Below, one piece after another: positions 6,687 to 62,893 of a stretch of 64,000 nt of DNA; position 1 is the stretch's first letter, and every line of letters begins with the position of its first letter. Source of the DNA: Bacteroidota bacterium (GTDB lineage: Bacteria; Bacteroidota; Bacteroidia; Palsa-965). The translations under genes were made by a program, and so were the position numbers. The stretch is from assembly GCA_020402865.1 (NCBI GenBank), contig JADBYT010000002.1, forward strand, positions 62,001 to 126,000. Reading direction: 5' to 3'. Under the pieces are notes generated by a model. It searched no databases and was not told the origin of the DNA. It saw nothing but the letters and a program-made list of their open reading frames with translations.

Positions 6687-6718
6687 CTTGTTTTACCCGT
6701 CCCAGTCCAATACCCCTT

Positions 6719-6754
6719 ACCGGCTTGCCTGAACAGGTGAGCCGGTTTTTTTTT
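6719..6754 (+). terminator. Rho-independent terminator after the lipoprotein gene
   Basis: ACCGGCT and CCTG pair with CAGG and AGCCGGT around a two-base loop, followed by nine T residues. Confidence 0.9.
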
Positions 6755-6781
6755 GCCCGGATAAAAATAATTCCTTTGCCT

Positions 6782-6789
6782 TACCTTTG
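6782..6789 (+). promoter_or_regulatory. -7 box TACCTTTG adjacent to start
   Basis: Consensus -7 box four bases ahead of ATG 6794; it rules out the longer ORF start at 6725, which also runs through the upstream terminator. Confidence 0.6.
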
Positions 6790-6793
6790 CTGC

Positions 6794-7369
6794 ATGATTG
6801 AAATTGGCCGCACACTGGTAGCTACCGAATTACTTGAGCGCAAATTTGTGTGCGATCTTACCGCTTGCAAAGGTGCCTGCTGTATTCACGGCGATTCGGG
6901 AGCTCCGCTGGAAGATGCGGAAACAGATAAGCTGGAAGAAATTTACTCGGCTGTAAAACCCTACATGACACCCGCCGGCATTGCGGCTGTGGAAGAGCAA
7001 GGAACCTGGGTAACCGACAGCGACGGCGATAAAGTGACACCGCTCGTGGGTGGCGACAAGGAATGTGCCTATGTGTATTTTGACGAGAAAGGAACAACCC
7101 TTTGCGCCATTGAAAAAGCATGGAAGGAAGGCAAAGTAGATTTTCAAAAACCGGTTTCCTGTCATCTTTACCCCGTTCGCATTACACCCTACAAGAAATT
7201 TGATGCGGTGAATTATGAGCAATGGGATATTTGCGCGCCGGCCTGCTCCTGCGGCGATAAGCTCGATGTGCCGGTATTCCGCTTCGTGAAAACGGCGCTC
7301 ATCAGAAAATACGGCGAAGAATGGTATCGTGAGCTTGAAGAGGCCGACCGGCTTATGCGTAACGCATAA
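6794..7369 (+). CDS. DUF3109 family cysteine-rich protein
   Basis: A 191-residue cytoplasmic protein conserved in Bacteroidota. Cysteines cluster as CDLTACKGACC near residues 19-29, a single Cys in KECAYVY, another in TLCAIE, one in KPVSCHLYPVRI, and CAPACSC near residue 150. This arrangement matches the DUF3109/YkgJ-like group thought to bind zinc or an iron-sulfur centre. The reaction is unknown. It has its own near-leaderless promoter and is followed by the exported peptidase gene after 60 bp. Confidence 0.75.
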   Translation: MIEIGRTLVATELLERKFVCDLTACKGACCIHGDSGAPLEDAETDKLEEIYSAVKPYMTPAGIAAVEEQGTWVTDSDGDKVTPLVGGDKECAYVYFDEKGTTLCAIEKAWKEGKVDFQKPVSCHLYPVRITPYKKFDAVNYEQWDICAPACSCGDKLDVPVFRFVKTALIRKYGEEWYRELEEADRLMRNA

Positions 7370-7429
7370 TTTTACTTGTGAAAAGCTGTAGCAGTGAGTA
7401 TCTTTCGATACTCACCTGACTCAGCTCAC

Positions 7430-8812
7430 ATGAAACGTTTCCTGTTATTTTTGTTAAGCATCCCGGCATTGTGCCCGGCTCAGTTTATTTCACAACCCGC
7501 AGGCAGTGCCTATACGTTTCAGTCGGGCGAGTGCATTAGCGATGCGCAGCGTGCGCAAATACGCACCCTGCTCGACAGCAGCAGGCAGCAACTTATTGCA
7601 CAGGGCCGGCTGAGTAGTGTGCACAGCGCACAGCAGGTGGCGCTCAACTGGCCCCTGCGTTTCCGGTCGGGCATTACGGAATATAATTTCTACTCCATTT
7701 CCGGAGGTGTTGATCATAATCCGCAATTCCCTAACCAACTGCTCGATTACAATTGCGGTTCACTTACCTATGATACCCAAAGCGGCTACAACCACGCCGG
7801 CACCGATTATTTCCTCTGGCCGTTTGCATTCAATAAAATGGACAGCTCGGAAGTAGAAATTGTGGCCGCCGCCGCCGGGACAATTATTTATAAGTCAGAC
7901 GGTAATTTCGACCGGAGCTGTGCATTTAACAGCAACAACTGGAACGCCGTGTATGTGCAGCACAGCGACGGCTCCGTGGCCTGGTACGGGCACATGAAAA
8001 ACGGTTCGCTTACCACCAAAACTGTGGGTCAGTCCGTAGTGCAGGGCGAATACCTCGGTGTAGTAGGCAGTTCTGGTAATTCAAGCGGTCCGCACCTGCA
8101 TCTCGAAATTTACGATGCAGCCAACAACCTCATCGACCCCTATGCCGGGCCCTGTAACTCGCTCAATACAACCAGCTGGTGGGCTTCGCAGGAACCCTAC
8201 TTCAACGGTGGCATAAACCACATTGCCACAAACAGCCAGCCGCCGGTATTCAATGCCTGTCCCGGAACCGATATCCGCAACGAGCGAGATTATTTTCTGG
8301 GCACTGACACCATTTACCTCATGCTCTACTACCGTTTCCTCGAAACCGGCGACAATACCACATATACCATTTACCGGCCTAACAATACAGTGTGGGGCAC
8401 ATGGCCATCAACCCACAATGGCCCCGATTACACCGCAGCCTGGTACTATTACTGGATTATACCCGGTGTTGGTGCGCCTAACGGGCAGTGGAAGTTTGAG
8501 GCCACCTACAACAATCAGACTTATTACACTTATTTCTACCTCGGCACTACTGCTGCTGAGCAAATGCAGGCAACGCCTCCCGCAGCCAGAGTGTGGTACA
8601 ACCAAGCCGCCACCACACTGCAGCTGGCCTCTACACAGCAGGGTATTTTGTATGTGTTTGATGCGGCCGGGAACCGGGTAAAGGAAACTGTAGTGCAGGA
8701 TGCCAATGAAGCCGTGTGGTGCGGCGATCTTGCCGCAGGGCTTTATATCTATCACTTTGCCGGAGATAACGGGGCCTCGGTAGCCGGGAAAATGGTGGTT
8801 TCGGCCAACTGA
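7430..8812 (+). CDS. T9SS-exported M23 (LytM) metallopeptidase
   Basis: A 460-residue secreted protein with a signal peptide (MKRFLLFLLSIPALCPAQ). The M23 catalytic domain spans roughly residues 120-235: the first zinc ligands lie in YNHAGTDYF (HxxxD) and the last in GPHLHLEIYD (HxH), separated by GYLGVVGSSGNS-type loop residues. Such enzymes cut peptidoglycan cross-links or Gly-rich peptides. The C-terminal 75 residues (GILYVFDAAGNRVKE, then GLYIYHFAG and GKMVVSAN) match the Por/T9SS type A sorting domain, so it should be secreted or surface anchored by T9SS. ATG 7430 was chosen over GTG 7394 because it opens the signal peptide. Confidence 0.85.
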   Translation: MKRFLLFLLSIPALCPAQFISQPAGSAYTFQSGECISDAQRAQIRTLLDSSRQQLIAQGRLSSVHSAQQVALNWPLRFRSGITEYNFYSISGGVDHNPQFPNQLLDYNCGSLTYDTQSGYNHAGTDYFLWPFAFNKMDSSEVEIVAAAAGTIIYKSDGNFDRSCAFNSNNWNAVYVQHSDGSVAWYGHMKNGSLTTKTVGQSVVQGEYLGVVGSSGNSSGPHLHLEIYDAANNLIDPYAGPCNSLNTTSWWASQEPYFNGGINHIATNSQPPVFNACPGTDIRNERDYFLGTDTIYLMLYYRFLETGDNTTYTIYRPNNTVWGTWPSTHNGPDYTAAWYYYWIIPGVGAPNGQWKFEATYNNQTYYTYFYLGTTAAEQMQATPPAARVWYNQAATTLQLASTQQGILYVFDAAGNRVKETVVQDANEAVWCGDLAAGLYIYHFAGDNGASVAGKMVVSAN

Positions 8813-47685: not shown

Positions 47686-49626
47686 ATGAGTACACCCACC
47701 CACCAACCCGAGTTTCAGGCCGGAGAACTCCTCCGGAACATCGAAATTCCAGCCGATCTGCGCAAACTGGCCGAAGAAAAACTTCCCCAGCTTTGCGATG
47801 AACTTCGTCAGTATATCATTGATTTAGTGTCGGTTAAGGGCGGGCATTTTGGTGCCAGCCTGGGTGTTGTGGAGCTTACCGTGGCGCTGCATTATGTGTT
47901 TGAAACGCCCCACGATCAGCTTGTTTGGGATGTGGGACACCAAGCCTACGGACACAAGATTTTGACCGGCCGCCGCAAGGTGTTTCATACCAACCGCATT
48001 TACAAAGGCATTTCTGGTTTCCCCAAACGCTCTGAAAGCGAGTATGATACGTTTGGCGTAGGCCACTCGTCAACCTCCATTTCGGCGGCGCTGGGCATGG
48101 CGGTTGCCGCCAACCGCAAAGGCGAACACGACCGCCAGGTAGTTGCTGTAATTGGCGACGGCGCCATGACGGCCGGCCTCGCATTTGAAGGCCTCAACCA
48201 CGCAGGTATCGAAAAAAGCAACCTGCTGGTGGTGCTCAACGACAACTGCATGAGCATTGACCCCAACGTGGGCGCGCTCAAAGAATACCTGAACGACATT
48301 ACCACCTCGCACACCTACAACAAGGTGAAAGACGAGGTGTGGAAAGTGCTCAGCAAGTTTGGCCCCGATGCACAGAAAATGGCATCGAAGCTCAGCGACG
48401 GACTGAAAACCGCGCTGCTCAAGCACAGCAACCTGTTCGAATCACTCAACTTCCGCTATTTCGGGCCTATTGACGGGCACGATGTGGACCGGTTGGTGAA
48501 AGTGATGCGCGACCTCAAAGACATTCCCGGCCCCAAACTCCTGCATGTGGTTACGCGCAAGGGAAAAGGCTTCAAGTTTTCGGAAGAAGGTAATCCTACG
48601 CTCTGGCACGCGCCGGGGCTGTTTGACAAAACCACCGGTCAGCTGGTGAAATCGCCCAACAACGGGCCTTCGGCGCCGAAGTATCAGGATGTGTTTGGCC
48701 ACACGATGGTGGAACTGGCCGAAGCCAATCCGAAAATCATGGGTATTACGCCGGCCATGCCCTCGGGCTGCTCGCTCAATATCATGATGAAAGCCATGCC
48801 CGAACGCGCAATCGACGTGGGCATTGCCGAACAGCATGCGGTAACGTTCTCGGCCGGACTGGCCACACAGGGTATGGTGCCGTTCTGCAACATCTATTCC
48901 TCGTTCATGCAGCGCGCCTACGATCAGGTGGTGCATGATGTGGCGCTGCAGAACCTGCACGTAGTATTTTGCCTCGATCGCGGCGGACTGGCGGGTGCTG
49001 ATGGCCCCACGCACCACGGCGCATTTGATCTTGCCTATTTCCGCTGCATCCCGAACATGGTGGTGAGCGCACCGATGAATGAACAGGAGCTGCGCAACCT
49101 CATGTACACCGCACAGCTCGATAAAAATGCCGGGCCGTTCTCGATCCGCTATCCGCGCGGCAACGGCGTGATGCCCGAGTGGCGCGCTCCGCTTGAAGAA
49201 TTACCCATTGGCAAAGGTCGCAAAGTGCGTGCAGGCAAAGATGTAGCCATTCTTACCATAGGCCATCCCGGCAATTTTGCGGTAGAAGCCTGCGAAACAC
49301 TTGCCGCCAAAGGCATTCAGGCCGCGCATTACGATATGCGTTTTGTGAAGCCGATTGATGAAGAAATGCTGCACGAAGTATTCTCGAAGTACAGTGCGGT
49401 AATTACTGTGGAAGACGGCTGCATACAAGGCGGTTTCGGCAGTGCGGTAATTGAATTTATGGCCGATCACGGCTACTCCGCAAAACTCAAACGCCTCGGC
49501 ATTCCTGATAAATGGATTGAGCACGGCGAACAACCGCAGCTCTGGAAAGAATGCGGCTTTGATACGGATGCCATTGTGAATACTGCGGTGGAGTTGGTGG
49601 AGAAGAAGAGTATAGTAACCGTGTAA
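47686..49626 (+). CDS. dxs: 1-deoxy-D-xylulose-5-phosphate synthase
   Basis: A 646-residue thiamine-diphosphate enzyme condensing pyruvate with glyceraldehyde-3-phosphate to DXP, the first step of the MEP isoprenoid pathway and precursor for thiamine and pyridoxal. Motifs: GHFGASLGVVELTVALHYVF, VWDVGHQAYGHKILTGR, the ThDP motif IGDGAMTAGLAFEGLNHAG...NDN, and the central part DRGGLAGADGPTHHGAFDLAYFR plus EGG-type PVGKGRKVRAG. The length is normal. It ends in a bidirectional terminator shared with a HAD gene. Confidence 0.97.
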   Translation: MSTPTHQPEFQAGELLRNIEIPADLRKLAEEKLPQLCDELRQYIIDLVSVKGGHFGASLGVVELTVALHYVFETPHDQLVWDVGHQAYGHKILTGRRKVFHTNRIYKGISGFPKRSESEYDTFGVGHSSTSISAALGMAVAANRKGEHDRQVVAVIGDGAMTAGLAFEGLNHAGIEKSNLLVVLNDNCMSIDPNVGALKEYLNDITTSHTYNKVKDEVWKVLSKFGPDAQKMASKLSDGLKTALLKHSNLFESLNFRYFGPIDGHDVDRLVKVMRDLKDIPGPKLLHVVTRKGKGFKFSEEGNPTLWHAPGLFDKTTGQLVKSPNNGPSAPKYQDVFGHTMVELAEANPKIMGITPAMPSGCSLNIMMKAMPERAIDVGIAEQHAVTFSAGLATQGMVPFCNIYSSFMQRAYDQVVHDVALQNLHVVFCLDRGGLAGADGPTHHGAFDLAYFRCIPNMVVSAPMNEQELRNLMYTAQLDKNAGPFSIRYPRGNGVMPEWRAPLEELPIGKGRKVRAGKDVAILTIGHPGNFAVEACETLAAKGIQAAHYDMRFVKPIDEEMLHEVFSKYSAVITVEDGCIQGGFGSAVIEFMADHGYSAKLKRLGIPDKWIEHGEQPQLWKECGFDTDAIVNTAVELVEKKSIVTV

Positions 49627-49640
49627 GTACACATGCAAAA

Positions 49641-49675
49641 AAAACACCGGCTTTGTTATTTAGAGCCGGTGTTTT
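49641..49675. terminator. Bidirectional terminator of dxs and the HAD gene
   Basis: 12-bp perfect stem AAAACACCGGCT / AGCCGGTGTTTT with an 11-base loop containing the HAD stop codon. Confidence 0.9.
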
Positions 49676-50303
49676 CATTTGTATCAAATCCAAACATTAC
49701 ATCGAGAAAATCGGCGGACCGGTTGATGAGATTTTCTTTCCAGTTCCGTTTTTCTATAGTACGCATGTTGTGTACATTGCGCAGACTTTGCAGATAGAAT
49801 GCGAGATAATAAAGTTCTTTATCATCGGTCTGGCCTGTCCATTCATTCACATAAATCGCATTGCCGTAATTAAACTGCACTTTAGCCGGTGTATCGTCCA
49901 CAATCAACATACGGTTAATATCCCATCCACGCTTGCGGAGTTTATTCAGTTTTTTGGCATACAGATAATTACCAAAACCGTGCGGGCTAACCAGTGAGGT
50001 TTCGTCAAACGCAGGAAAATAAGGTGTGCAGCGCGAATTGCCCCATACAAATTCCAGCGGAATATCTGCTGGAAAAATCCGCTTAACTACTTCAGCTACA
50101 TAATCATCACTGGCCGATGACCAGACAGCAAGCTGATAGTGCGGTTTTACGAACTTAAGGAAATAGTGGAGGTGAGGGCGTATATATACGGAGTAGTTAA
50201 ACACACTGAAGTCAGCTTCACGAGCCAATGGTTTGGGAGCAGCGTGAATAAGGGTTTCGTCGAGATCGAGGATGAGTAATGCGGGGTTATAGGGGGGATT
50301 CAT
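49656..50303 (-). CDS. HAD-superfamily NLI-interacting-factor-like phosphatase
   Basis: A 215-residue protein with catalytic motif LLILDLDETLIH (DxDxT, FCP1/SCP type), YIRPHLHYFLKFV, VWSSASDDYVAEVVKRI (motif II Ser) and LIVDDTPAKVQFNYGNAI (motif IV DD). Such proteins are Mg-dependent phosphatases of phospho-proteins or small molecules; the bacterial substrates are not established. It is the last gene before the integrated element; its start is 40 bp from the outer repeat. Confidence 0.85.
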   Translation of the reverse strand: MNPPYNPALLILDLDETLIHAAPKPLAREADFSVFNYSVYIRPHLHYFLKFVKPHYQLAVWSSASDDYVAEVVKRIFPADIPLEFVWGNSRCTPYFPAFDETSLVSPHGFGNYLYAKKLNKLRKRGWDINRMLIVDDTPAKVQFNYGNAIYVNEWTGQTDDKELYYLAFYLQSLRNVHNMRTIEKRNWKENLINRSADFLDVMFGFDTNENTGSK

Positions 50304-50343
50304 AGGGTGGTTAATTGTAAAGCGAAGTTATTGATTTTGTACG

Positions 50344-50368
50344 GCAAGTCTGGAGACTTGCGAAAGTT
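50344..50368. repeat. Left copy of outer direct repeat (25 bp, perfect)
   Basis: GCAAGTCTGG…AGACTTGC followed by GAAAGTT; itself palindromic (GCAAGTC TGGA GACTTGC). A perfect second copy is at 61096-61120. It could mark the element ends or be a dispersed repeat. Confidence 0.7.
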
Positions 50369-50496
50369 AAAAGTAAACTCAAAAACCAAACAGATAACAA
50401 CACAAAACATATATAGACAAACTATTGTATATCCATTACTTACGGCATTTTGTTTGATTCCTATTATTTGTATTTTCTCTGATATTTAGCTCAGAT

Positions 50497-50517
50497 TTGT
50501 ACCTTTGTTGTACCTCA
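50497..50517. repeat. Left copy of inner direct repeat, candidate attachment site
   Basis: TTGTACC, TTTG, TTGTACCTCA. The right copy at 60897-60917 differs at two of 21 positions. It contains two TTGTACC units 11 bp apart and overlaps a -7 box TACCTTTG (50500-50507). Confidence 0.6.
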
Positions 50518-50533
50518 AACAGTCGAGGTACAA
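50508..50533. promoter_or_regulatory. Inverted repeat (9 + 8 + 9 bp) ahead of the integrase
   Basis: TTGTACCTC, spacer AAACAGTC, GAGGTACAA. The geometry fits either a tyrosine-recombinase core site or a repressor operator at the integrase promoter, 10 bp before the integrase ATG at 50544. Confidence 0.55.
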
Positions 50534-50543
50534 ATATTAGCCT

Positions 50544-51686
50544 ATGCCTATCAAAGTAAAACTCCGTCAAAAGAAAATTTCCCAAAACAGGCAAAGTTTA
50601 TACTTAGACTTTTACCCTGCCATCATTAACCCGGAAACAGGTAAATCCACACGGAGGGAGTTTTTGAACTTATACTTATACGATAATACCAGAAACCCTA
50701 TTGATAAGCAGCACAACAAAGAAACGCTGCAAATAGCCCAGCAGATACGCCAGAAACGTGAAAACAGTTTGAACAAACCGGAGGTTTACACTGAGCAGGA
50801 AAGGGAACATCTGAATAAAAAACAGTTAGGCGAAAAGGACTTTTTGGCCTATTACATAGCACTTAAAGATAAGCGGCACGGAAGTAACCGCGAAATCTGG
50901 GCTGCCGCATATTCATACATTGAAATGTTTGCTAATGGAAATTTGAAATTTTCCGATTTAACACCTCAGTTTTGTGATAATCTTAGAGAGTATCTGCTCA
51001 ACTCAAAAAGTCTGAGAAATCAAAATTTAATGATAAGTCAGAACACAGCATCCGGGTATTTCAGAACTTTCAAAACTGCACTCAAAAAGGCCTTTAAAGA
51101 CGGATATATTCAAACTGATATTAGTACAAAAGTGGCCGCAATTCCTCCCGCCGAAACATTTAGAAATTTTCTGAGTTTGGAGGAGTTAAAAAACCTTGCA
51201 AATACAGAATGTGCAGACCCTCTAATTAAAAGAGCGGCGCTGTTTTCTGCTCTTACCGGGTTGAGGTTTTCGGATATTTCAAATCTTACATGGGGCGATG
51301 TGCATTTAAGCGATACACAAGGCTGTTCAATACATTTCCGGCAGCAAAAGACAAAAGGGGTTGAAATCATGCCTATTTCAGCGGATGCGGTGGTATTAAT
51401 GGGAGAACGAAAAGAAACACACAAACAGGTTTTCGAGGGGCTTAAAAAATCTGCATACGGCAATGTATATATGTACAGATGGCTGGGGGCTGCCGGTATT
51501 ACCAAACACATAACATTTCACTGTTTCAGGCATACTTTTGCTACTATTCAACTCTCTTTAGGTACAGACATTTACACGGTTTCAAAAATGCTGGGACATC
51601 GGGAGTTATCCACAACTCAGGTTTATGCCAAAGTAATTGACAAATCAAAGAGAGAGGCGGCAGACAGGATTAAACTGGATTTGTAA
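50544..51686 (+). CDS. Tyrosine recombinase (integrase)
   Basis: A 380-residue integrase of the phage/conjugative-element type. The N-terminal arm-binding region (KVKLRQKKISQNRQSLYLDFYP) is followed by a SAM-like core-binding domain (KDFLAYYIALKDKRHG...ALKKAFKDGYI) and a catalytic domain with all residues: Arg in ALTGLRFSDISNL, Lys in RQQKTKG, His-Arg in ITFHCFRHTFA and His in LGHRELSTTQVYAKV, whose Tyr is the nucleophile. It would excise or insert the element. The start has a short spacer to the inverted repeat. Confidence 0.95.
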   Translation: MPIKVKLRQKKISQNRQSLYLDFYPAIINPETGKSTRREFLNLYLYDNTRNPIDKQHNKETLQIAQQIRQKRENSLNKPEVYTEQEREHLNKKQLGEKDFLAYYIALKDKRHGSNREIWAAAYSYIEMFANGNLKFSDLTPQFCDNLREYLLNSKSLRNQNLMISQNTASGYFRTFKTALKKAFKDGYIQTDISTKVAAIPPAETFRNFLSLEELKNLANTECADPLIKRAALFSALTGLRFSDISNLTWGDVHLSDTQGCSIHFRQQKTKGVEIMPISADAVVLMGERKETHKQVFEGLKKSAYGNVYMYRWLGAAGITKHITFHCFRHTFATIQLSLGTDIYTVSKMLGHRELSTTQVYAKVIDKSKREAADRIKLDL

Positions 51687-51703
51687 ACCCTAATAGAAAC
51701 AAA

Positions 51704-53113
51704 ATGAGAGAAAGGCATTTTTCATTTGACGTTGAACGCATTACCCCTCTAAAGATGTGTGGTAAAGTAGTTATGTATGAGTTTAAAACAAGCGGGGGTT
51801 TTGAATATCCTTTTGAAATACAACCAACAAAGGGAGAACATGATTTTTCAACCTGCGAAAAATGCCAAAAATCGCTCAGTGACTTAACGAAAAGATTTAC
51901 TGAAAAGTTCAACGGCAATAAACAAAAAAAAGGATTTCCATTATGCTGTCCTTATCACTCAAATCTTGTAAATATTAAAGAGTTTAACCGTGATTTTATG
52001 GTGAACGTTCCGGCAATGGTTGCCAGAAAAATAATTTACACAAACCAGCATATTATCAATTATCACAGTTCTGAAAATTGGTATAAACAGATTACGGATT
52101 ACATAGATTACGCTGTGGATAGCTTTGGGAAAATGCCTAAAGACTGCGGGGAACCCTTGTATTTATCAGATTACTTTGATTATGTGACTGATCTGCTCAA
52201 ACCAAATACAGTGATTAACTCAAAAAAGAAAGAGCAGATATTTGATTTTATTAACGCCTATAAGCAACCGGCAAAAAGCTACAAAACCGATTTACAATTA
52301 CTGCTAAACATTTATCAAAAGTGGCTCAACGAATTTCCTTTTGAGTTGAATAGTTACTTCGGAAATCTGAAACAATACTTTGAAAATAGCTTACCATTAC
52401 TAAATGGCACATCCGAAATGAATATTTATTCTGGTTGGGCAAGGGTTAAATTTCATACCAAAGCCAGCCTCATTATGCTAATAGAAAATATTACAAAAGA
52501 TATACTAAATCAAATAAACGGGGTTTCGCTATATGAAAAGGGATTAATTACAGATACAAACAAAATCCAAATTGAACTCTTAATTAGCAGCCGTAAACTG
52601 AAACTAAATGCAGGGTATAAAAGCAGTTCAAAGGACGAAGAACAACGCTACCGGAAAATATTAAAAGAGTGGTTAGAAGATGAGAAAAAATTCTTTAAGG
52701 AGTTAGCCCCTTTATTATCTCAATCAATAGCGGTAAATCAAAATCCGAAACAGGAAACCAGAGCAGAGAAACTATCTAAAATATTTGCTCAACACGGGTT
52801 CAATGAATTAGATAAAGTGAAGAATTTATCTGAGCCTAACAAAATCAAATTAGTTGAATTAATCGCTCAAAATAAGATACCCTACATTGTGGCAATGTTG
52901 GATTTTTTGGGTTTTTTCACTTTGCTTAAAAAAGATTATTTCGGAAGCGATGATAAGTTATATAAATCAATGAGCAAGTGGTTTGACTGTGACGAAAGAG
53001 CAATAAAAGGTAATAAAGCGGTACTAAATGAAATATCTAAAGAAGATAGGAAAAGATACACTGCCGACCAGCAGAAAGAAACAGTAAAAAAAGACTATGA
53101 AAAATTAAAATAG
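51704..53113 (+). CDS. Element-borne protein with N-terminal Cys/His cluster
   Basis: A 469-residue protein not recognised. The first 110 residues have CEKCQKSLSDL (CxxC) and, later, LCCPYHSN (CC..H), compatible with a zinc ribbon. The rest is helical and Lys-rich (IYQKWLNEFPFELNSYFGNL, KKFFKELAPLLSQS, LAKIFAQHG type). The C-terminus DFLGFFTLLKKDYFGSDDKLYKSM with many charged residues resembles regulators or replication/transfer proteins of Bacteroidota elements. It follows the integrase by 17 bp; AT-rich codon use marks it as recently acquired. Confidence 0.45.
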   Translation: MRERHFSFDVERITPLKMCGKVVMYEFKTSGGFEYPFEIQPTKGEHDFSTCEKCQKSLSDLTKRFTEKFNGNKQKKGFPLCCPYHSNLVNIKEFNRDFMVNVPAMVARKIIYTNQHIINYHSSENWYKQITDYIDYAVDSFGKMPKDCGEPLYLSDYFDYVTDLLKPNTVINSKKKEQIFDFINAYKQPAKSYKTDLQLLLNIYQKWLNEFPFELNSYFGNLKQYFENSLPLLNGTSEMNIYSGWARVKFHTKASLIMLIENITKDILNQINGVSLYEKGLITDTNKIQIELLISSRKLKLNAGYKSSSKDEEQRYRKILKEWLEDEKKFFKELAPLLSQSIAVNQNPKQETRAEKLSKIFAQHGFNELDKVKNLSEPNKIKLVELIAQNKIPYIVAMLDFLGFFTLLKKDYFGSDDKLYKSMSKWFDCDERAIKGNKAVLNEISKEDRKRYTADQQKETVKKDYEKLK

Positions 53114-53177
53114 GGCGTACCCCCCTATTGTTGCCCCTAAATGCCCCTCAGAGTATTGCAGCCAAAATATAACTGCA

Positions 53178-53522
53178 ATGCTAAAAGTAACATTTGACAC
53201 CCTCCCGGAAGCGGTTACACAGCTTTACGATAAGCTAACCGCTATTGAGCGCATTCTGGTTGAGCAAAACCCGCCTCAACACGCAGAAACCGAACAACTG
53301 CTCACTATTCAACAGGCCGGGGAATTTCTCAATCTCTCAGTACCTACGCTTTACGGCTATGTAAGCCGCTCCGCTATTCCGGTAAGTAAACGCGGAAAGA
53401 GGCTGTATTTCTCAAAGCTGGAGCTTTTGCAATGGATAAAAGACGGGCGAAAGAAAACGGCTGCTGAGATAAAAAACGAAGCTGAAAGCTATCTAAAATC
53501 TAAAAGGGGCAGAAATGGTTAA
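53178..53522 (+). CDS. Excisionase-like helix-turn-helix DNA-binding protein
   Basis: A 114-residue protein. The C-terminal two thirds is a MerR/excisionase-like HTH: LLTIQQAGEFLNLSVPTLYGYVSR, then IPVSKRGKRLYFSKLELLQWI. The N-terminus (EAVTQLYDKLTAIERILVEQN) is a predicted coiled coil that may dimerise. Excisionases of this type direct the recombinase to excise the element; its location just after the integrase block supports that. Confidence 0.75.
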   Translation: MLKVTFDTLPEAVTQLYDKLTAIERILVEQNPPQHAETEQLLTIQQAGEFLNLSVPTLYGYVSRSAIPVSKRGKRLYFSKLELLQWIKDGRKKTAAEIKNEAESYLKSKRGRNG

Positions 53523-53668
53523 CATCCCTTGCCCCTTACATTTTGTGCAGTTCAAAGATAGCGTTTCATTGTGCCGGATGCAACTGTTTTGCAGAATAAA
53601 AAGCTATTCTCTCACCCGCTTTAATGCGTTACTACTGCTGCCCGCCGCCTTAAAAAAAGGAGGCTAAA

Positions 53669-54529
53669 ATGGTTGACTATATTAAGTTATCCATTACCTC
53701 CAAAAGTTTGGCTCATTACCTGCGAACCAATGTTTGCCACGTTCTGGATAATGTACTACACAGAACCGGCGATATTTCAAACTCTGTGTATGTAGGAACT
53801 ATTGGGAATGAGTTTAAAGTAGAGGTGTTTAGTTCAAACAGGGTGCAGCTTTCCGGCAGCCTCCACAAATACTATACACAAGGCACAAACGCAGGGGATT
53901 TTACCTTTTCAATGGTTTGTGATGCTGTTGAAAGGTTAGCCGGTGAACTGGGAGTTTATCCGTATGAATTAATACTTCACAATCTGGAGATAGGCGTAAA
54001 CCTGTCTTTACCTTACAGCCCGGATAATGTCTTAAAAAACATAGTATGCACAAAAACCGGCTGCCAGTTCAATATACATTCAACCTCTGTACGGTACTGC
54101 CCTAAAGGTGAGTACAGACATAAGATTTACAACAAGTCTGCACAGTACCCGATAAAGGACAAACACATTCTCCGTTATGAAATTCACATTGATAAAATGC
54201 GAAAAATACCCCCGGTGAAAACATTACAAGATTTAACCGAAATGCAGAACTGGTTTGAGTTTCAGCGGTTACTACTTTTACATTTTGGTGAAATTGTTTT
54301 TTTAGATTATTACGATTGGGAAATCCTACCTGAAACAGAGCGAAACTTCTATAAAAAGCACGGTTCAAAAATCAATAATATACTCTGTTGGAAAAGGTTT
54401 AAAGCCAAACAACGGCACGACATTTTCAAACAGTTGAAAGCTTTTCAAATAAAATATGGAGCAAACCGGTTTTCGTTTTACTTACACTCACTCATTGAAA
54501 AGAAAATAGACGAATTAAGAGTTTTGTAA
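53669..54529 (+). CDS. Replication-initiator-like protein of the element
   Basis: A 286-residue protein. The middle, VQLSGSLHKYYTQGTNAGDFT and ILHNLEIGVNLSLPYSPDNVL, follows the pattern of rolling-circle initiators of the filamentous-phage gpII/X type (S-L-H-K-Y...G-x-N-x-x-D-F and L-E-x-G-V-N). HKIYNKSAQYPIKDKHILRYEIH may be the catalytic region, where Tyr candidates lie. If correct, the element replicates when excised. The recognition is by pattern only. Confidence 0.45.
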   Translation: MVDYIKLSITSKSLAHYLRTNVCHVLDNVLHRTGDISNSVYVGTIGNEFKVEVFSSNRVQLSGSLHKYYTQGTNAGDFTFSMVCDAVERLAGELGVYPYELILHNLEIGVNLSLPYSPDNVLKNIVCTKTGCQFNIHSTSVRYCPKGEYRHKIYNKSAQYPIKDKHILRYEIHIDKMRKIPPVKTLQDLTEMQNWFEFQRLLLLHFGEIVFLDYYDWEILPETERNFYKKHGSKINNILCWKRFKAKQRHDIFKQLKAFQIKYGANRFSFYLHSLIEKKIDELRVL

Positions 54530-54598
54530 TGTTTTCACCGTTCAATTAATGGGTGAAAAGATTACCTGCGTATTTCTCTAAGAATTTAGGTTATCTAT

Positions 54599-55174
54599 AT
54601 GGGACGTTATTCTACACTACCAACACTGTACAACGAATGCCGAAAATTAACAGCCTCAAAGCTGAATAAATGGGGCTACATTCAACCGGGAGGGATTGTT
54701 TCCGGTGTGATAAGCTGGAGTAAAAACGGACATAAAACCGGCGAAGTTTCGGCCTCTCTCAGTTTCGCGGGTGCGTTGCCGGTTTTAACGCTGAATTATT
54801 GCTTCAACAAAGAACCCCGGGAGTTTACTGTACAGCTTACCTCCCGGCAGTCGAATTTAGGCCGGGGGCTGGTTTGGTACTTCGTTTGCCCGAAAACCGG
54901 TTTACTGTGCAGCAAACTGTATCTCATTAACGGCTACTTTGTACGACGTGCAACACACGGCACGGGCTTTTACCATATACAAACTATGTCGAAATCAGAC
55001 CGGGTTAAAATGCAGCTTTACGAACGTTTTTTCAGGTGTGAGAATGCTTATATGGCTTTGTATAGTAAACACTTCAAAAAAACATACAACGGAAAGCCCA
55101 CGCACCGGTATATGAAAGTAATGCAGCATATACGGCAGGGAGAGGGTATAAACGAGGAGGAACTTTACATTTAA
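54599..55174 (+). CDS. Hypothetical protein of the element
   Basis: A 191-residue basic protein starting MGRYSTLPTLYNECRKLTAS; strand-rich (GVISWSKNGHKTGEVSASLSF, GLVWYFVCPKTGLLCSKLYLI) with a helical tail (QLYERFFRCENAYMALYSKH). No family recognised. The Cys-rich FVCPKTGLLCSKLY could hold a metal. The gene's stop overlaps the stop of the convergent helical-repeat gene by 4 bp. Confidence 0.45.
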   Translation: MGRYSTLPTLYNECRKLTASKLNKWGYIQPGGIVSGVISWSKNGHKTGEVSASLSFAGALPVLTLNYCFNKEPREFTVQLTSRQSNLGRGLVWYFVCPKTGLLCSKLYLINGYFVRRATHGTGFYHIQTMSKSDRVKMQLYERFFRCENAYMALYSKHFKKTYNGKPTHRYMKVMQHIRQGEGINEEELYI

Positions 55175-56649
55175 CCCGGTTTGCGGCGGCTTTCTTTCAT
55201 TTCAAAAGCAACGCCCAAAGCCTTTGATATAAACCAGTCGTGAAACGGCAGTATTTCCCACCTGAACAAATGCCGGGTGTTTGCGCCGTGCAGAGCCGGT
55301 ACTAAACCCGGTTGATATTCGCGGAGTTGGTTAATTACTTCGGATTTGTGCTGAAATACCTTTTTGAAATTCAAATCCGTTTCTGCCAGTGCTTCAACTA
55401 ATTCTATACAGCAATGTTCCCGCGCTGTGAGTTGTCCGTATTTGGGCAGTGTTGCCAGTACACGGCGAAACATACCGGCAGTTTTGCTTTGTGTTTTTGT
55501 TTGCCCTTGCTCTGTATATGCAATAAGCAAAAGCAGCCGTGCAGACACCCCGAAACCCTCCGCGTCTGCTGTTTTCATATTCAGCAATTCAAGTACCTCA
55601 GCCGCCTCTGCAAATTCGTTTTTGCAAAGCAGCAGCAGAGCTTTCAGATAAACCGTTTTTTCTGAAAGTGGTTTTGTTTCTTTGAGCAGTTGAGCCGCAA
55701 GCGTAAAGCGTTTAAGCTGTATGTATGCCGCTGCTTCAATTTGCAGTAATTCGCTGAGGTCGAAATCTTGCCCGGTTTCAACGGCTTTGGCTTGCTGTGC
55801 TGTTATCAAAGCCTTTTCCGGTTTATTGCAATGCAAGTAAAGCAGCGCAAGTTTCAGCAGGGTTTCACGCTCTGGAGTACCGCTTTGCAAAGCCGGGGAC
55901 TGTTTTATTAACCGAAGTTGATTTTTACGGCAGCGTACAACCTTTGCAAACTGATTGTTTTTCTCCGCGCTGAGTGCTTCGGTTTCAAACAAACAGAATG
56001 AAACACGCACCGAATGAAACTGCTTTTCAAGTTCGCGGAGTTCGTTTAATTGTATTTCGGTTGCTCCGGCGGGTGCAGCCTCAGCAAACCGGTAAAGCTC
56101 CCGGCAGGTGTGCAGCAGTTGCATACTTTGCAGGTATTTTCCCTCCAGCTTTTCATACTTTGCCCCCTGTGCCGGGTTTATTTGTTGCAGGTAGGCCAAT
56201 ATTTGCAGCAGTTCGGGGTAAAACTCAAACTGCAAAGCCGTATCGTAAACCGTGCTGAGGTAAAACCCTGCAAACACAGTTAAACCGCGTTCTAAAAGAA
56301 ACTCCGCATGATGCAAGCGAACACGGCAAGCCGAAAACGCTTTTGTGTATGCCGTTTGTGAAATGTGCCGCTTTGTATTGATGTGAAGTGTAACAGCCTC
56401 CAGCAGCTTTTCTTTGAGCCGCAATACCAAACGACTGAAAGCCGGTACATTCATTTTACCGTAGAGCAAAAACTGTAATTCTCTTTCGGTGTGCTGTTCT
56501 TCGCTGCAAAGCAGGATTAACAGTTTTCGGCTTTTGCTTTCGTAGTTTTCCCCGCGTTCGTCAAACGCTGCAAGGAAGTTATGGCAGAGTGCAACTTCGT
56601 TTGGTTTCAGGGCTTTTACAAGGGCTGTGAGTGTGTTTATTCCGCTCAT
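55171..56649 (-). CDS. Helical-repeat (TPR-like) protein inside the element
   Basis: A 492-residue, Leu/Ala/Glu-rich all-helical protein. It starts LTALVKALKPNEVALCHNFLAAF and has several pairs of helices reminiscent of TPR (ERETLLKLALLYLHCNKPEKALITAQQAKAVE, IQLKRFTLAAQLLKETKPLSEKTVYLKALLLLCKNEFAEAAEV). It resembles the protein at 61361-62893 in overall plan. Its higher GC than its left neighbours suggests a different origin from the replication genes. Function unknown. Confidence 0.55.
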   Translation of the reverse strand: MSGINTLTALVKALKPNEVALCHNFLAAFDERGENYESKSRKLLILLCSEEQHTERELQFLLYGKMNVPAFSRLVLRLKEKLLEAVTLHINTKRHISQTAYTKAFSACRVRLHHAEFLLERGLTVFAGFYLSTVYDTALQFEFYPELLQILAYLQQINPAQGAKYEKLEGKYLQSMQLLHTCRELYRFAEAAPAGATEIQLNELRELEKQFHSVRVSFCLFETEALSAEKNNQFAKVVRCRKNQLRLIKQSPALQSGTPERETLLKLALLYLHCNKPEKALITAQQAKAVETGQDFDLSELLQIEAAAYIQLKRFTLAAQLLKETKPLSEKTVYLKALLLLCKNEFAEAAEVLELLNMKTADAEGFGVSARLLLLIAYTEQGQTKTQSKTAGMFRRVLATLPKYGQLTAREHCCIELVEALAETDLNFKKVFQHKSEVINQLREYQPGLVPALHGANTRHLFRWEILPFHDWFISKALGVAFEMKESRRKPG

Positions 56650-56870
56650 TGGTTTTACTGGTTTAAGTGAACCGTAAAACCCTCATTTCAAATATGCCTC
56701 AGCTTTGGGCTATGCTGCAAATAGCGGACACTCAAAAACACCTATACAGCACACTAACAACCGGTTACAGTGGTGCAGAAAACGCTCTGCCCTTTGTTGC
56801 TGCTTTGGCAGAGGTTGCCCCGGTCTTTCAACTCCCGCCTAAATGCTTAAATTTCGCATTAAGGTTTCTC

Positions 56871-56878
56871 TATCTTTG
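56871..56878 (+). promoter_or_regulatory. -7 box TATCTTTG close to the JAB gene start
   Basis: Consensus box five bases ahead of ATG 56884; it is part of the DNA read by the 56667-56879 ORF, which is therefore doubtful. Confidence 0.6.
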
Positions 56879-56883
56879 AGCGT

Positions 56884-57498
56884 ATGAACGTGACATTAAC
56901 CAAAACGCAGAAAATATTAATTGAAAGTTCCGGCGATATTGCCCGGATAATGCGGCAAATACTGCTACGTGAAAACCGCATAAGCCGCCAAAAAGAACAC
57001 CTCTGGGCTATTGGGCTTAATGCAGATTTCAGCATTCTGTACGTTGAGTTAATTGCGTTTGGCATACCCGGCAAAGGCAAGGTTAAACCGATGGAAATTT
57101 TTCGTTTGGCGTTGCAAAAAGAGGCTGAGTATATGTACCTCTGCCACAACCGGAAAACGGCTGATATGGCCGCTCAACCAGACGATAAGGCGCTAACTGA
57201 TCGAATGATACAGGTAGGCAATATTGTAGGGATTAACGTTTACGACCACGTAATAATAAATGCGAAAACCGAAGATTACCTCAGCTTTGCAGATGTGGGA
57301 TTAATGGAGGAACTGCGAAAGAGTACAACGTGGATACCAAAGTTTGAGCAGATCAAAAAAATTAAGAAAATGGCTGCTGATGAAGCTGTAAAAAAAGACC
57401 GTATCACCATTGCCAAAACAATGAAGAAAAACAAGGTTTCGGCAGATTTGATTTCAAAGTTTACCGGGCTGAGTGTGGAGGAAATAAAAAGCCTTTAA
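56884..57498 (+). CDS. RadC/JAB-like protein with degraded metal motif
   Basis: A 204-residue protein. The middle follows the RadC/JAMM plan: VELIAFGIPGKGKVKPMEIFRLALQ, then YLCHNRKTADMAAQPDDKALTDRM, then VGINVYDHVIIN. RadC has HNHPSG...PSxxDxxxT; here the second His is Arg and the PSG is lost, so the metal site is probably not functional as a protease. The C-terminus (DRITIAKTMKKNKVSADLISKFTGLSVEEIKS) looks like the tail of HTH-linked or Rpn-type proteins. A variant JAB protein, role unknown. Confidence 0.6.
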   Translation: MNVTLTKTQKILIESSGDIARIMRQILLRENRISRQKEHLWAIGLNADFSILYVELIAFGIPGKGKVKPMEIFRLALQKEAEYMYLCHNRKTADMAAQPDDKALTDRMIQVGNIVGINVYDHVIINAKTEDYLSFADVGLMEELRKSTTWIPKFEQIKKIKKMAADEAVKKDRITIAKTMKKNKVSADLISKFTGLSVEEIKSL

Positions 57499-57505
57499 CC
57501 GCTAA

Positions 57506-60500
57506 TTACTCAAAGTCTATTTTGTCTATCTCTTTCATTATACGCGCTGTTTCAGATAGTGCCACAATGATTTTCTGATAGTGCAAAATATCGTCGAACT
57601 CCAGTTTCCTTTCTTTGCGGTCTTTGAGCCATTTCTGGGCGGGCTGATAACCGCCTATATAAAACTCCCACGCAGTGGCCGGTACATTGTCGAAATACTG
57701 CGTTTCGTTTATATACACCCTGCCGTTTTTATACACGGGTTTGTTTACCACGTTATCCCCGTCAACCGGGTACTGTGTTATGTACTTTTCTACTTTCGGG
57801 CTTTCCAGCAAATGTATTTCCCTGAGTTCGCCGCCTAACTTTACTAATTTCCAAAACGTTTCTTTGTCTTTCGGATAGGGTACTCTGGGAAAATCTATTT
57901 TCAAAAACTCTTTGTATTTCTCCCGGTAGGTGGGCGAATGTAAAACGGAATAGATATAGTCTAAAATGTCTATTGGTGCGAAAGTATTTTTGCCCGTTTC
58001 TTTTTCCGTGGTGAATTTAAGAGCTAATATTTTACTTATCTGTGTAATAATTTCCGAGTTTAAATTTGGTTGTCTTTTATCGGTAAACTCCGAAACAATA
58101 CTTCTTTGATTTTTTTCTTGAGGATTGACATATAATGGAAAGTAACTTCCAGAACCAAATCTTCCTGCTGTACCTGTTAAATTAAAATCACCAATCAGTT
58201 TTGTAATGAATATATAATGCCAGTTTCCTACGCTTTGACGTGCAATCACCATTCCTAAGTTATCCCCATTAAGAAAATGCTGCATTACTTGTTTTACAGG
58301 CCATCCAATAAACCCCTTTGATTCACCAGTGTAATAAGTCCATTTAATATCGAAAGGTCTATAATTGTATTTTACAAACAAATGATCCTTCAAGCCGAAC
58401 GCCATTACATTATTTTTACAAAATTCTACTTTCCCATCTCTGCTTTCCCAGCTAATTTTATTGTATTTAATTTTTATTTCATCACAACTAAGATTGTAAA
58501 TATCCTGAACCTTTTCAATGATTTCTGATTTTGTATTTTGAAATGCTAAGCTATCTCTTTTACTAACAATGCCTATTCCATTTATCTTAAAAAGACTAAC
58601 CACAGAAAACCCATCATTATACTTTTTTGAATCGTTAAATTTCTTCGGCGTAAAAAAATAATTTGGTGTAACCGGATTAAGCCTCTTAAAGCCTATTTCT
58701 GATAGCTTTTTTGAACTTAGAAAATTGTATTTTTTATCTCTCTTCCCAAATAAATCTATATGGAAAACTTGCCCTAAATTATTTGACTTTTTTTCGCCGG
58801 TCTTAATAAATATATTAATTGAAACTCCTTGCTGAATATCAAATACATTTTCATCAATGCTACCATCCGGTGAAATCTCTTTCTTTTTACTATTCCCGTG
58901 CAAATCAATGGTATAAATTTTATCAAATGTCTTTAACAAGTTCCATCTCATCCCTCTAAACGTGGGGTTATCTAAATAGCTATTAGGATTAATGTAGGCT
59001 AATATGCCACTCCCGTTTTTTTCGATAAAATGCTGCCCATACCTAATAAATTTATTTTCATCAGCGTTTATCCATTTTGAATTTTTCTCTTGTAGTTTCC
59101 CCTTTGAATCTGGCTCTTTTTTGTAATCTTCCATCAACTTCAAAATCCATTCCCCTTTATTCGCACTTTCCCCACTATACGGCGGGTTTCCTATAATGCA
59201 CATAACCGGCGTATCTCTTTTTATTTTGTTTGCCTCGTTTGCCTCCGCACTCAACCAGTTTGCAAACAGCGTTCCGGTATCGGGGTGGCTTTCTTCTAAA
59301 CTGTTGGTAAGATACACGCGGAGGCGTTGGTTTTTGGTGGGCTTAAAACCGGTTTCGGTAAACAGTAAATCCAACTGCAAATGTGCCATTGCATAGCTTG
59401 CCATAAGCAACTCAAAACCGTTGAGGCGGGGCAGTAGATGCGTTTCTACATAGTTGCTCCAAATACCTTGTTGCCCCTCAAACTTTTTGTGTATCTGTTT
59501 AACCACCTCAGCCAAAAATGTACCTGTACCGGTGGCCGGGTCAAGTATCTGCACTTTGTGTACTTCCTGCTCAACCGTTTTTATATTCTCTTTGTAGCGT
59601 TTATCGGTTTCCTGCAAGTTTACTTTTACTTTGGTTTTGCTGGTATCTGCTAAACCGTTGGGCAGGTTAAACTCTGTTTTCAATACCTCATCAACAGCAC
59701 GTACTATAAAATTAACTACCGGTGCAGGTGTGTACCAAACGCCCCGCGCTTTGCGTAGTTTGGGGTCGTACTCACTCAGAAAGGTTTCGTAAAAGTGTAT
59801 TATCGGGTCTTCGGTTTTGGTGCTTTTGCCGTAGTTCTTTAGCAGTTCCTCCACGTTGCAGGCTAAAAACACCTCCACCAAACTATCTACAATCCATTTA
59901 ATACGGTCGTCAATGTCAACCCCGGCAATGTAGCTAAATAGCTTTCTCAAAAATGGGTTTGATTTGGGTATAAGCTCCGCTGCTTCCTGTCTGCTGAATG
60001 TGGGCAGCGTGGGGTCGTGCAAACGTGCTGCAAACATGCCGTAGGCTATTGTCTGGGCGTACACATCTGCAAAGGCTTTCGGGGTAATGTCGTGTATGAG
60101 AATTTCTTTGAATGCGTGTAGCTGGTCTTTGAGTGTGCTGTTTTCTGAGGTTTCCTCATCGCTGTTCAACGCCTGTTCAATTACGTTTGCCAGCAGCCGG
60201 GCTTTGGCGGCCATCATTTCGGCTAATGTTTTGCTGCTCTTTATGGTTTGCGTTACCTCTAAAGCAAAATCACGGATAAGGTGTTCAAACGTTGTAAATG
60301 CTTCGGGTATAGGCTTTATTTCGCGTTTCCCGGCCTTATCTGTTATTTCGGCTATGCGGACGCTCTGCGTAGGCTTTCCGGCCTTGTAGAAGTGGAAATC
60401 CAGATAATCGGTAAAAATCAAATTGGTAAGGCTTTCCCGGTAGCGGTCGAACTGTTCTTTGTTGCCGCTTTTGTTTTTGCCCTGCAAATCGCCGTCCCCT

Positions 60501-60715
60501 ACGTCTTTAGCTTCAATAAAACCCACCGGTATATCATTCCGGGTTAAAATATAGTCGGGTGCTCCGCATTTTTGGCGTTTGGGTTCGTTTGTAGCATACA
60601 CACCGGGAATGAGGCTTTCAATGAGTAGCTGTAAATCACCCCTGAATGAGTGTTCGGTGGTATTGCCTTGCTTATATCGTTTATTGATACTGTCTAAATA
60701 TTCGGCTACGTTCAT
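57506..60715 (-). CDS. Single-chain restriction-modification enzyme (type IIG/ISP-like)
   Basis: A 1069-residue protein combining nuclease, methylase and target recognition. The N-terminal PD-(D/E)xK pattern is GAPDYILTRNDIPVGFIEAKD (residues about 47-70). The adenine-methylase motifs are ILDPATGTGTFLAEVVKQIH (motif I) and CIIGNPPYSGES (motif IV, NPPY). The C-terminal part carries specificity and LGMVIARQSVG. One chain both cutting and methylating protects the host and may addict it to the element. It lies at the right end of the element on the minus strand. Confidence 0.85.
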   Translation of the reverse strand: MNVAEYLDSINKRYKQGNTTEHSFRGDLQLLIESLIPGVYATNEPKRQKCGAPDYILTRNDIPVGFIEAKDVGDGDLQGKNKSGNKEQFDRYRESLTNLIFTDYLDFHFYKAGKPTQSVRIAEITDKAGKREIKPIPEAFTTFEHLIRDFALEVTQTIKSSKTLAEMMAAKARLLANVIEQALNSDEETSENSTLKDQLHAFKEILIHDITPKAFADVYAQTIAYGMFAARLHDPTLPTFSRQEAAELIPKSNPFLRKLFSYIAGVDIDDRIKWIVDSLVEVFLACNVEELLKNYGKSTKTEDPIIHFYETFLSEYDPKLRKARGVWYTPAPVVNFIVRAVDEVLKTEFNLPNGLADTSKTKVKVNLQETDKRYKENIKTVEQEVHKVQILDPATGTGTFLAEVVKQIHKKFEGQQGIWSNYVETHLLPRLNGFELLMASYAMAHLQLDLLFTETGFKPTKNQRLRVYLTNSLEESHPDTGTLFANWLSAEANEANKIKRDTPVMCIIGNPPYSGESANKGEWILKLMEDYKKEPDSKGKLQEKNSKWINADENKFIRYGQHFIEKNGSGILAYINPNSYLDNPTFRGMRWNLLKTFDKIYTIDLHGNSKKKEISPDGSIDENVFDIQQGVSINIFIKTGEKKSNNLGQVFHIDLFGKRDKKYNFLSSKKLSEIGFKRLNPVTPNYFFTPKKFNDSKKYNDGFSVVSLFKINGIGIVSKRDSLAFQNTKSEIIEKVQDIYNLSCDEIKIKYNKISWESRDGKVEFCKNNVMAFGLKDHLFVKYNYRPFDIKWTYYTGESKGFIGWPVKQVMQHFLNGDNLGMVIARQSVGNWHYIFITKLIGDFNLTGTAGRFGSGSYFPLYVNPQEKNQRSIVSEFTDKRQPNLNSEIITQISKILALKFTTEKETGKNTFAPIDILDYIYSVLHSPTYREKYKEFLKIDFPRVPYPKDKETFWKLVKLGGELREIHLLESPKVEKYITQYPVDGDNVVNKPVYKNGRVYINETQYFDNVPATAWEFYIGGYQPAQKWLKDRKERKLEFDDILHYQKIIVALSETARIMKEIDKIDFE

Positions 60716-60896
60716 ACGTTCGGAAATGGAATTTGTGCAGGGAGGTTTTATTTTCTGCTAAAATACGGGGATAAATGAGAGCGTAAAACTATGTCGGGGA
60801 AACCGCTTTTGCCTGTTGCGGGAAATTTTGGGCTGTTTTCGGGTAGCTTTTTTGGTAGTGGGCATATTGTGGCTGATTGACCGCCTCCGCTGATTT

Positions 60897-60917
60897 TTGT
60901 ACCTTATTTGTACCTCA
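60897..60917. repeat. Right copy of inner direct repeat, candidate attachment site
   Basis: TTGTACCTT, ATT, TGTACCTCA; 19 of 21 bases as in 50497-50517. Confidence 0.6.
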
Positions 60918-60979
60918 TGCGCGGTTATTTAGTATAAGTGACTAATAATCAGCATCTTGAAAATTTATCGACTTGCTTC

Positions 60980-61219
60980 AGTTTTAGCGTGCGGGTTTTA
61001 TCGGCTTCGCCGAAGTAAACCCTTCGCAGCTTTGGTTGTTTTTTGAGATGATGGGTTAATTCTGTAAACGTAGAATGCGTGTTGTACATTCTGCAGCAAG
61101 TCTGGAGACTTGCGAAAGTTTTAGCGTGCGGGTTTTATCGGCTTCGCCGAAGCAAACCCTTCGCAGCTTTGCAGCTTTGTTTTATCGGCTTCGCCGAAGT
61201 AAGCCCTTCGCAGCTTTGG
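60980..61219. repeat. REP-like repeats with CTTCGCCGAAG core
   Basis: Units AGTTTTAGCGTGCGGGTTTT then ATCGGCTTCGCCGAAG and CCTTCGCAGCTTTG occur at 60980-61034 and 61117-61170, with a shorter copy at 61178-61219. The central CGGCTTCGCCG is near-palindromic. Confidence 0.85.
61096..61120. repeat. Right copy of outer direct repeat (25 bp, perfect)
   Basis: Identical to 50344-50368; it abuts the second REP-like unit, which favours a dispersed repeat rather than an att site. Confidence 0.7.
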
Positions 61220-61360
61220 GCAGCTTCGGGCAGGTATTTCTTCCTGTTAAAACAAATTGACAGGCAGCACATCCGGGGTCAAAAGCGACCCCGGATGTTT
61301 CTTTTGCAACGACAGTTTGTTTTAGCAGAAATGCAGCTGTGGGCGATGGGGGATTGCACG

Positions 61361-62893
61361 TTACTGTTTATGCCTTTCGCGGAACACTTCGGCAAAAGTT
61401 CTGTTCTCGAGCTGGGCGCGAAGCCAGGCAATGCAATCGAAATATTCGAGCGCAGCTTGTTCGAAGCGGTTCTGGCTGAGTTTCTGTAATTGCTGAAGTA
61501 ATTGCTGATAGACGATGCGCTGTTTTTCGCGGGTGATGGGCTTGGCGAGCGTGAGCGCAAAACGCAGCAGCAGATTTTCAGTGGTGTAAAGCCGGCGACG
61601 GCGGTCGAGATAATTTGAGGTGGAGCGGGCTATGGAGCCAATAAGTTCGTCGTTGCCGATATCAATGTGGATGAACAAACGAAAGATGCGTGCAAAGCTC
61701 ACCACATCCTGCACATAATCGTGCTCATGTTCATTTATAATGCTGTTGAGCCATTGCAGGGCTTTTCGCACTTTACCATCGCCGTAATACAACAATGCAA
61801 TGTTGTAGCGAAGTATGAGTTCAATGTCTTTTTCGATGAGTGCACCAAAGCGGGTGAGGTTTTTTTCCCAGTAGCTTACCCGCTGCACCCCTTCGGCAAA
61901 ACGCCCGGCACATTGGAGTACATCCGACTCGATAATGGCACTGCGCTTAAATACCACAGCTTTGTTGTTTTCTGTTCTGAACTGCGGATACTGTGCATTA
62001 AGTTGCATGAGCTGCCGGTTAATGGCCAGCGCCTCGTCGTAATTGCGCTGGCTGCGATGCACCACAGCCAGGTCGAACAACACGCCTGAGTATTTCGAAA
62101 TCTGAAGCGGGGTAGGCGAGGGCAGGTGTTCAAACAACATGGCCAGTTTGCGCCGGTGCTGCATGGTTTTGTCGAGATTGCCCAGCACCAGGTTGCAGTT
62201 GGCGTTGAGGCGGTGAAAAAAGTAGCGGGCCTCAAACGAGCGGGCTCTGGAAGCCGAGGTGAGCAGCGGATTTTTCAGTAAATCGCGGAATACTTTTTCT
62301 TCTTTGGCTGTTCGCGGCCAGAGACTTCGCCTTCGGCTGAGGTCGAATCTGTCGCTAAGATGCTGGTAGGCACTCAGGTTGGCGTATTGTTCAATAAGTT
62401 CTTTTTCTTCTCTGATGAGACCTTCCATTTTCCCTTCCATGGTTAGCGGATCGAAATGCCGGATCAATTGTTTTTTAAGAGCCAGCGCTTCGAGTGCATG
62501 CAGGAATAGTTCTTTTTCAATGAGACGCGGATAAAGCCTGTTCAGTCTTTTGCTTGCTGCTGTAAACATGCCTTTGCGTATGAGCAGGCTTGCCGCAAGC
62601 ATTTCGGCCGAAGCAGCGGCCTGCGCATTATCGGGCTGATGCAGGGCGCAAAGTGCATCGAGAATTTGTGTAAACAGGTAGTTCTTTACCGCCGGCAGCC
62701 GTGATAAAAAACTCCGCCCTTTGAAATGCTGCTTCAGCGCAGCCTCATCATACTGTTTCTGTTTCAGCACTACATCAAAAACCTGCATGTAATCGGCATT
62801 GGCGGCCGCCGCTCCGCACCAGGTGCGAAACCATGCTTTTTCTTTTTTATCGAGTAAGTGAATGAGCTGATGCAATTCGGAAGAAGGTGTCAT
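61361..62893 (-). CDS. Helical-repeat (TPR-like) hypothetical protein
   Basis: A 510-residue all-helical cytoplasmic protein: ELHQLIHLLDKKEKAWFRTWC at the N-terminus, paired helices (KQHFKGRSFLSRLPAVKNYLFTQI, FTAASKRLNRLYPRLIEKELFL, KVRKALQWLNSIINEHEHD). It has no obvious enzyme motif. The architecture (N-terminal L-x-K-x-E-K-x-x-F, then TPR-like pairs, about 500 residues) parallels the element's 492-residue protein. It lies outside the inner and outer repeats, so it is probably chromosomal. Confidence 0.6.
   Translation of the reverse strand: MTPSSELHQLIHLLDKKEKAWFRTWCGAAAANADYMQVFDVVLKQKQYDEAALKQHFKGRSFLSRLPAVKNYLFTQILDALCALHQPDNAQAAASAEMLAASLLIRKGMFTAASKRLNRLYPRLIEKELFLHALEALALKKQLIRHFDPLTMEGKMEGLIREEKELIEQYANLSAYQHLSDRFDLSRRRSLWPRTAKEEKVFRDLLKNPLLTSASRARSFEARYFFHRLNANCNLVLGNLDKTMQHRRKLAMLFEHLPSPTPLQISKYSGVLFDLAVVHRSQRNYDEALAINRQLMQLNAQYPQFRTENNKAVVFKRSAIIESDVLQCAGRFAEGVQRVSYWEKNLTRFGALIEKDIELILRYNIALLYYGDGKVRKALQWLNSIINEHEHDYVQDVVSFARIFRLFIHIDIGNDELIGSIARSTSNYLDRRRRLYTTENLLLRFALTLAKPITREKQRIVYQQLLQQLQKLSQNRFEQAALEYFDCIAWLRAQLENRTFAEVFRERHKQ

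Follow-up and report, generated by a model that had tools for sequence, protein, structure and literature searches.

A predicted integrative element of a Bacteroidota genome interrupts a REP-like repeat and has relatives at the end of mnmE

The window, a 64,000-nucleotide stretch of a Bacteroidota genome, contains a predicted mobile DNA island of about 10.6 kb, with genes for an integrase of its own and for restriction-modification (Table 1). We consider it very probable that this island is a site-specific integrative element, comprising positions 50362–60969 plus a shared 7-bp overlap, and that its own tyrosine integrase inserted it into a dispersed REP-like unit. Two features of such elements are present: a recombinase with catalytic motifs adjoins one end, and GACTTGC occurs at both ends with the target REP-like unit interrupted. 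Judged from its sequence, the island is a member of a Bacteroidota family whose usual insertion site is the end of mnmE. It shares with this family a related integrase and paired GTACC subterminal sites at both ends, but it lies in a REP-like unit instead of at the mnmE 3' end, and the host mnmE is elsewhere. A preliminary description had recognized an integrated element, with an integrase near one end and restriction-modification cargo near the other. This is borne out by an element of like gene order that lies at a different locus in a related genome (G007) and by three circular relatives. It is a real integrated element, with boundaries that we correct here. GC content had also been described as lower than in the flanks. 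This holds for the window as a whole (0.403 in the element, 0.472 in the remainder), but the 10 kb to the left of the element are also low (0.421), so composition alone is weak evidence for the element.

Table 1. Features of the predicted element and its junctions, in window coordinates
Feature	Position	Strand	Description
Left junction (attL)	50344–50368	+	Left REP-like half (palindrome GCAAGTCTGGAGACTTGC), overlap GACTTGC at 50355–50361, element arm GAAAGTT
Left subterminal site TTTGTACCTTTGTTGTACCTC	50496–50516	+	Pair of GTACC half-sites with 11 bp between them; likely arm-type site for the integrase
Third half-site, inverted	50525–50534	-	Offset same as in several relatives
Tyrosine integrase, 380 aa	50544–51686	+	Arm-DNA-bind_5, SAM-like and catalytic domains; catalytic R, HxxR, H and Y motifs
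orf469	51704–53113	+	No assigned function; C-terminal part common to same-position proteins of circular relatives (50–51%)
HTH_17 protein, excisionase-like	53178–53522	+	Putative directionality factor
orf286	53669–54529	+	Unannotated family with members in 37 of the 395 class genomes; any role in replication a guess
orf191	54599–55174	+	No assigned function; conserved counterparts in G007 and in the circular relative L122
TPR-like protein	55171–56649	-	Conserved in G007 (39%)
RadC-like JAB-domain protein	56884–57498	+	80% identical in G007
Type IIG (ISP-type) restriction enzyme-methyltransferase, 1069 aa	57506–60715	-	Predicted; variable cargo slot
Right subterminal site TTTGTACCTTATTTGTACCTC	60896–60916	+	Likely integrase arm-type site
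Right junction (attR)	60970–61034	+	Overlap GACTTGC at 60970–60976, then tail and stem-loop (60977–61034) of split unit
Intact neighbouring REP-like unit	61096–61171	+	Source of outer 25-bp repeat; outside element

Two nested pairs of direct repeats had been reported around the island, and both are present: an inner 21-bp pair at 50496–50516 and 60896–60916, and an outer pair at 50344–50368 and 61096–61120 that is identical at 25 of 25 bases (GCAAGTCTGGAGACTTGCGAAAGTT). The view of the outer repeat as REP-like stands, with nine copies of its palindrome in the genome and none in the control. What had been missed is that the left copy is the left half of a unit split by the element. The palindrome is followed by a tail and stem-loop in all eight other genomic copies, whereas element DNA follows the copy at 50344. 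The left part of this unit occupies 50344–50361, its missing tail and stem-loop lie at 60977–61034, and GACTTGC is common to both ends. Joining the flanks in a script restored a complete REP-like unit. Since the other copies are complete and the joined flanks restore a unit, we conclude that the element split one REP-like unit, and that the outer 25-bp pair consists of half of this unit and of the intact neighbour at 61096. Insertion into a REP-like unit is known for a single copy of the element family, the one in the window.

Across window positions 60970–61260 and loci L079–L087, the REP-like family is a two-hairpin unit, with a fixed palindrome and then a stem-loop that varies in sequence yet stays paired. 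A search of Rfam gave no match across window positions 49400–61600, REP-like copies included.

The main weaknesses of these boundaries are both on the right, where the subterminal site is 55 bp from the core and where the junction reads GACTTGCTTCAGTT (TTCAGTT), not GACTTGCGAAAGTT (GAAAGTT), with 3 of 7 bases differing after the overlap. If the outer pair were instead the true attachment repeat, the element would end in the unit at 61096–61120 (right end 61107) and not at 60970. This reading would use a perfect 25-bp repeat and give the junction GACTTGC-GAAAGTT on both sides, a better fit to the GAAAGT arm of relatives. However, it would place the right site 192 bp from the core, compared with 41–63 bp in relatives, and would make a coincidence of the truncated unit at 60970, which starts exactly at the break of the left copy. 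We regard it as unlikely and retain a right end at 60969.

The inner pair had been favored as the attachment site, and it does form a direct repeat (19 of 21 bases) suitably spaced to enclose integrase and cargo. Comparison with relatives makes this role highly improbable. Their core is the mnmE 3' end (TTYTGTATYGGAAAGTAA), and it lies outside the inner sites. Among relatives with closely related integrases in other Bacteroidota, the distance from left site to core was 138–141 bp in 12 cases; the distance from right site to core was 41–42 or 63 bp in six cases, two classes separated by about two helical turns. In G007, a 17-bp direct repeat (TGTATCGGAAAGTAACC; L042 6652–6668 and 17859–17875) corresponds to the mnmE 3' end and lies outside the equivalent motifs, which are thus internal to the G007 element. 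Additionally, the three circular relatives keep both motifs about 200 bp apart with a single core between them, whereas recombination at the motifs would leave only one.

The inner pair represents conserved subterminal sites inside the element, and these most likely serve as binding sites for the arm domain of the integrase. With up to 3 mismatches allowed, the pattern occurs at only two places in the window (50496 and 60896; 0.05 expected by chance). Nearly every case also has a third half-site past the left site, placed at either of two fixed offsets, and the arm domain is the part of the integrase most conserved relative to the window protein (71%–75%, compared with 42%–66% elsewhere). We read the sites as predicted arm-type integrase sites because of this fixed geometry and arm-domain conservation. 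In the window, the left core arm GAAAGTT is 136 bp from the left site (131–134 bp in relatives), and the 55-bp right spacing falls between the two classes of relatives and fits neither exactly. The motif was carried by 12 of 395 class genomes (14 matches, compared with 2 in a backwards control), and a search with the DNA motif alone recovered cognate integrases in two further viral contigs and, directly beside the motif, in five genomes other than the host (G000) and G007.

The sister element in G007, a family-level relative, has the same gene order as the window element. Protein identities are 60% for the integrase, 50% for the HTH protein, 44% for orf286, 43% for orf191, 39% for the TPR-like protein, and 80% for RadC. 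Its ends carry the same inner motifs, and it adjoins mnmE on its 3' side. Other genomes hold degraded or solo-site remnants of the family at mnmE (L158, L159, L161, and L162). At L158 (4896) and L162 (18697, partly masked), solo subterminal sites lie 138 bp past the mnmE core without a nearby integrase; these are possible scars of lost elements. In a genus relative (L163, G005:C10), a frame resembling another integrase starts past the mnmE 3' end, which suggests that this position may be a hotspot for a wider range of elements.

The three circular relatives are IMG/VR contigs (L122, L132, and L137), and they are apparently excised circles, with circularity judged from the terminal repeats of assembled contigs. 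L122, found via orf191, has a 127-bp terminal repeat and is accordingly read as a circle of 7683 bp; between its inner motifs, the core reads GTTACTTTC-TGTATCG-GAAAGTAAG. L132 and L137, found by the search with the DNA motif alone, have terminal repeats giving circles of 6053 and 7050 bp and a layout like that of L122. The L122 integrase (6691–7809) has a proline at the expected first catalytic arginine (LTGIPFQ, compared with LTGLRFS).

Gene content had been described as including an integrase, a helix-turn-helix gene and a restriction-modification gene, all of which we find, and a replication-like protein, orf286, for which such a role is a guess: none of Pfam, NCBIfam, and PHROGs gave it a significant family match. 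When orf286 alone or alignments A3 and A6 were used to scan viral and genome contigs, at most the G007 record was returned. Among phages and plasmids, the matches were two faecal contigs and one plasmid, all weak. Its structure, predicted from two sequences, was poor (pLDDT 44.6), so we make no Rep or HUH assignment. Genes of the orf286 family (window 53669–54529, L088–L121) often directly follow an HTH_17 gene and have an integrase nearby. The enzyme encoded beside the right end matches the PADLOC type IIG model PDLC03610 and Type_ISP_C, and is predicted to combine a methyltransferase and an ISP-like specificity domain in one chain. The slot that it occupies carries variable cargo. In G007, RadC is followed in the same slot by a different type IIG enzyme (Eco57I/TaqI type) and orf260; the remnants carry a HipBA-like pair (L161) or a HigBA-like pair (L159), names that come from reading the sequences and not from a family scan, and L156 carries other genes. 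PHROGs matches covered only integration and small DNA-binding or enzyme genes, with no virion structural or packaging genes as in a prophage, and no relaxase or virion gene was recognized among the annotated proteins of the element.

The window copy is presumably mobile, as circular forms of three relatives suggest. Alternatively, it could be a dead relic that no longer excises, in keeping with the differences between its two junctions past the overlap and with the family remnants at mnmE elsewhere; we think this rather doubtful, given that the integrase and the other listed genes have open frames, that the integrase retains its catalytic motifs, and that neither subterminal site is damaged. 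We found neither a circle nor an empty site of the window element itself, and the predicted circle junction had no exact match in the viral contigs searched. Comparison through flanking genes also gave no empty site: the phosphatase gene on the left is absent from genus relatives, and in these the nearest homologue of the TPR gene on the right (41%) is not beside dxs.

For a mobile window element, the most likely arrangement is that the core-binding and catalytic domains of the integrase hold the core while its N-terminal arm domain holds the paired GTACC sites. The HTH_17 protein would probably steer the reaction towards excision. The excised circle would presumably join AAATTTATC-GACTTGC-GAAAGTTAA, by analogy with the circular relatives and their cores. 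We predict a circle junction of AAAATTTATC-GACTTGC-GAAAGTTAAAAG and an empty site of GCAAGTCTGGA-GACTTGC-TTCAGTTTTAGCG. The type IIG enzyme is exchangeable cargo that probably protects or stabilizes the element and its host.

The host mnmE suggests that an earlier element was once present there. Its end reads TTTTGTATCGGTAAATAA, and 32 bp later starts a type IIG gene that shares 61% protein identity, and 79% DNA identity over 1.6 kb, with the G007 cargo. At this locus (L166; G000:C13, ~66.3–69.2 kb), no integrase was found adjoining the gene, which may be a cargo remnant of an mnmE element that has since been lost. We tentatively propose, as a possibility short of an even chance, that an mnmE-targeting integrase lineage switched its core specificity to the two-hairpin repeat and so gained several equivalent intergenic sites, with the host mnmE end diverged (GGTAAATAA) and directly after it a restriction gene resembling that of the sister element.

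These results define a Bacteroidota family of small integrative elements through a cis-site signature usable as a DNA search pattern, and circular contigs filed as viruses are probably excised forms of this family. The window element is also a clear case in which the most visible direct repeats at the ends of an island are not its attachment sites, and it makes testable whether elements switch targets between conserved gene ends and palindromic repeats. Within an incomplete coverage of the literature, we found no paper on Bacteroidota mnmE or hotspot elements, an absence that is weak evidence of novelty.

In its mode of action, the window element would resemble other tyrosine-integrase islands. 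Among known systems, SGI1 uses the 3' end of trmE (= mnmE) as its target, and among SGI1-like islands (trmE/mnmE, dusA, and yicC) the target differs together with the integrase (PMC6531882, PMC8409611). The window element resembles this group in being a tyrosine-integrase island whose relatives target the mnmE 3' end, but it differs in its Bacteroidota host and in lying elsewhere than mnmE. Family scans of the annotated proteins gave no family matching the mpsAB/oriT mobilization module or conserved tra genes of SGI1. NBU and CTnDOT of Bacteroides have a tyrosine integrase with an N-terminal arm domain, an HTH excisionase-like protein, and a 7-bp overlap. The window element is like them in these general features, but it has another target and no recognized relaxase or conjugation genes. 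Some IS elements, such as IS621, are known to target REP sequences (PMC1525189, PMC11208160). The window element is likewise inserted in a dispersed palindromic repeat, but it is a multi-gene island with a tyrosine integrase and has no IS110-type or other IS transposase; within a limited coverage of the literature, no paper described a tyrosine-integrase island inserted into REP-like repeats. Finally, its restriction enzyme matches the class of type IIG/ISP-type enzymes, but here the enzyme is cargo, in a slot that holds another type IIG enzyme in G007.
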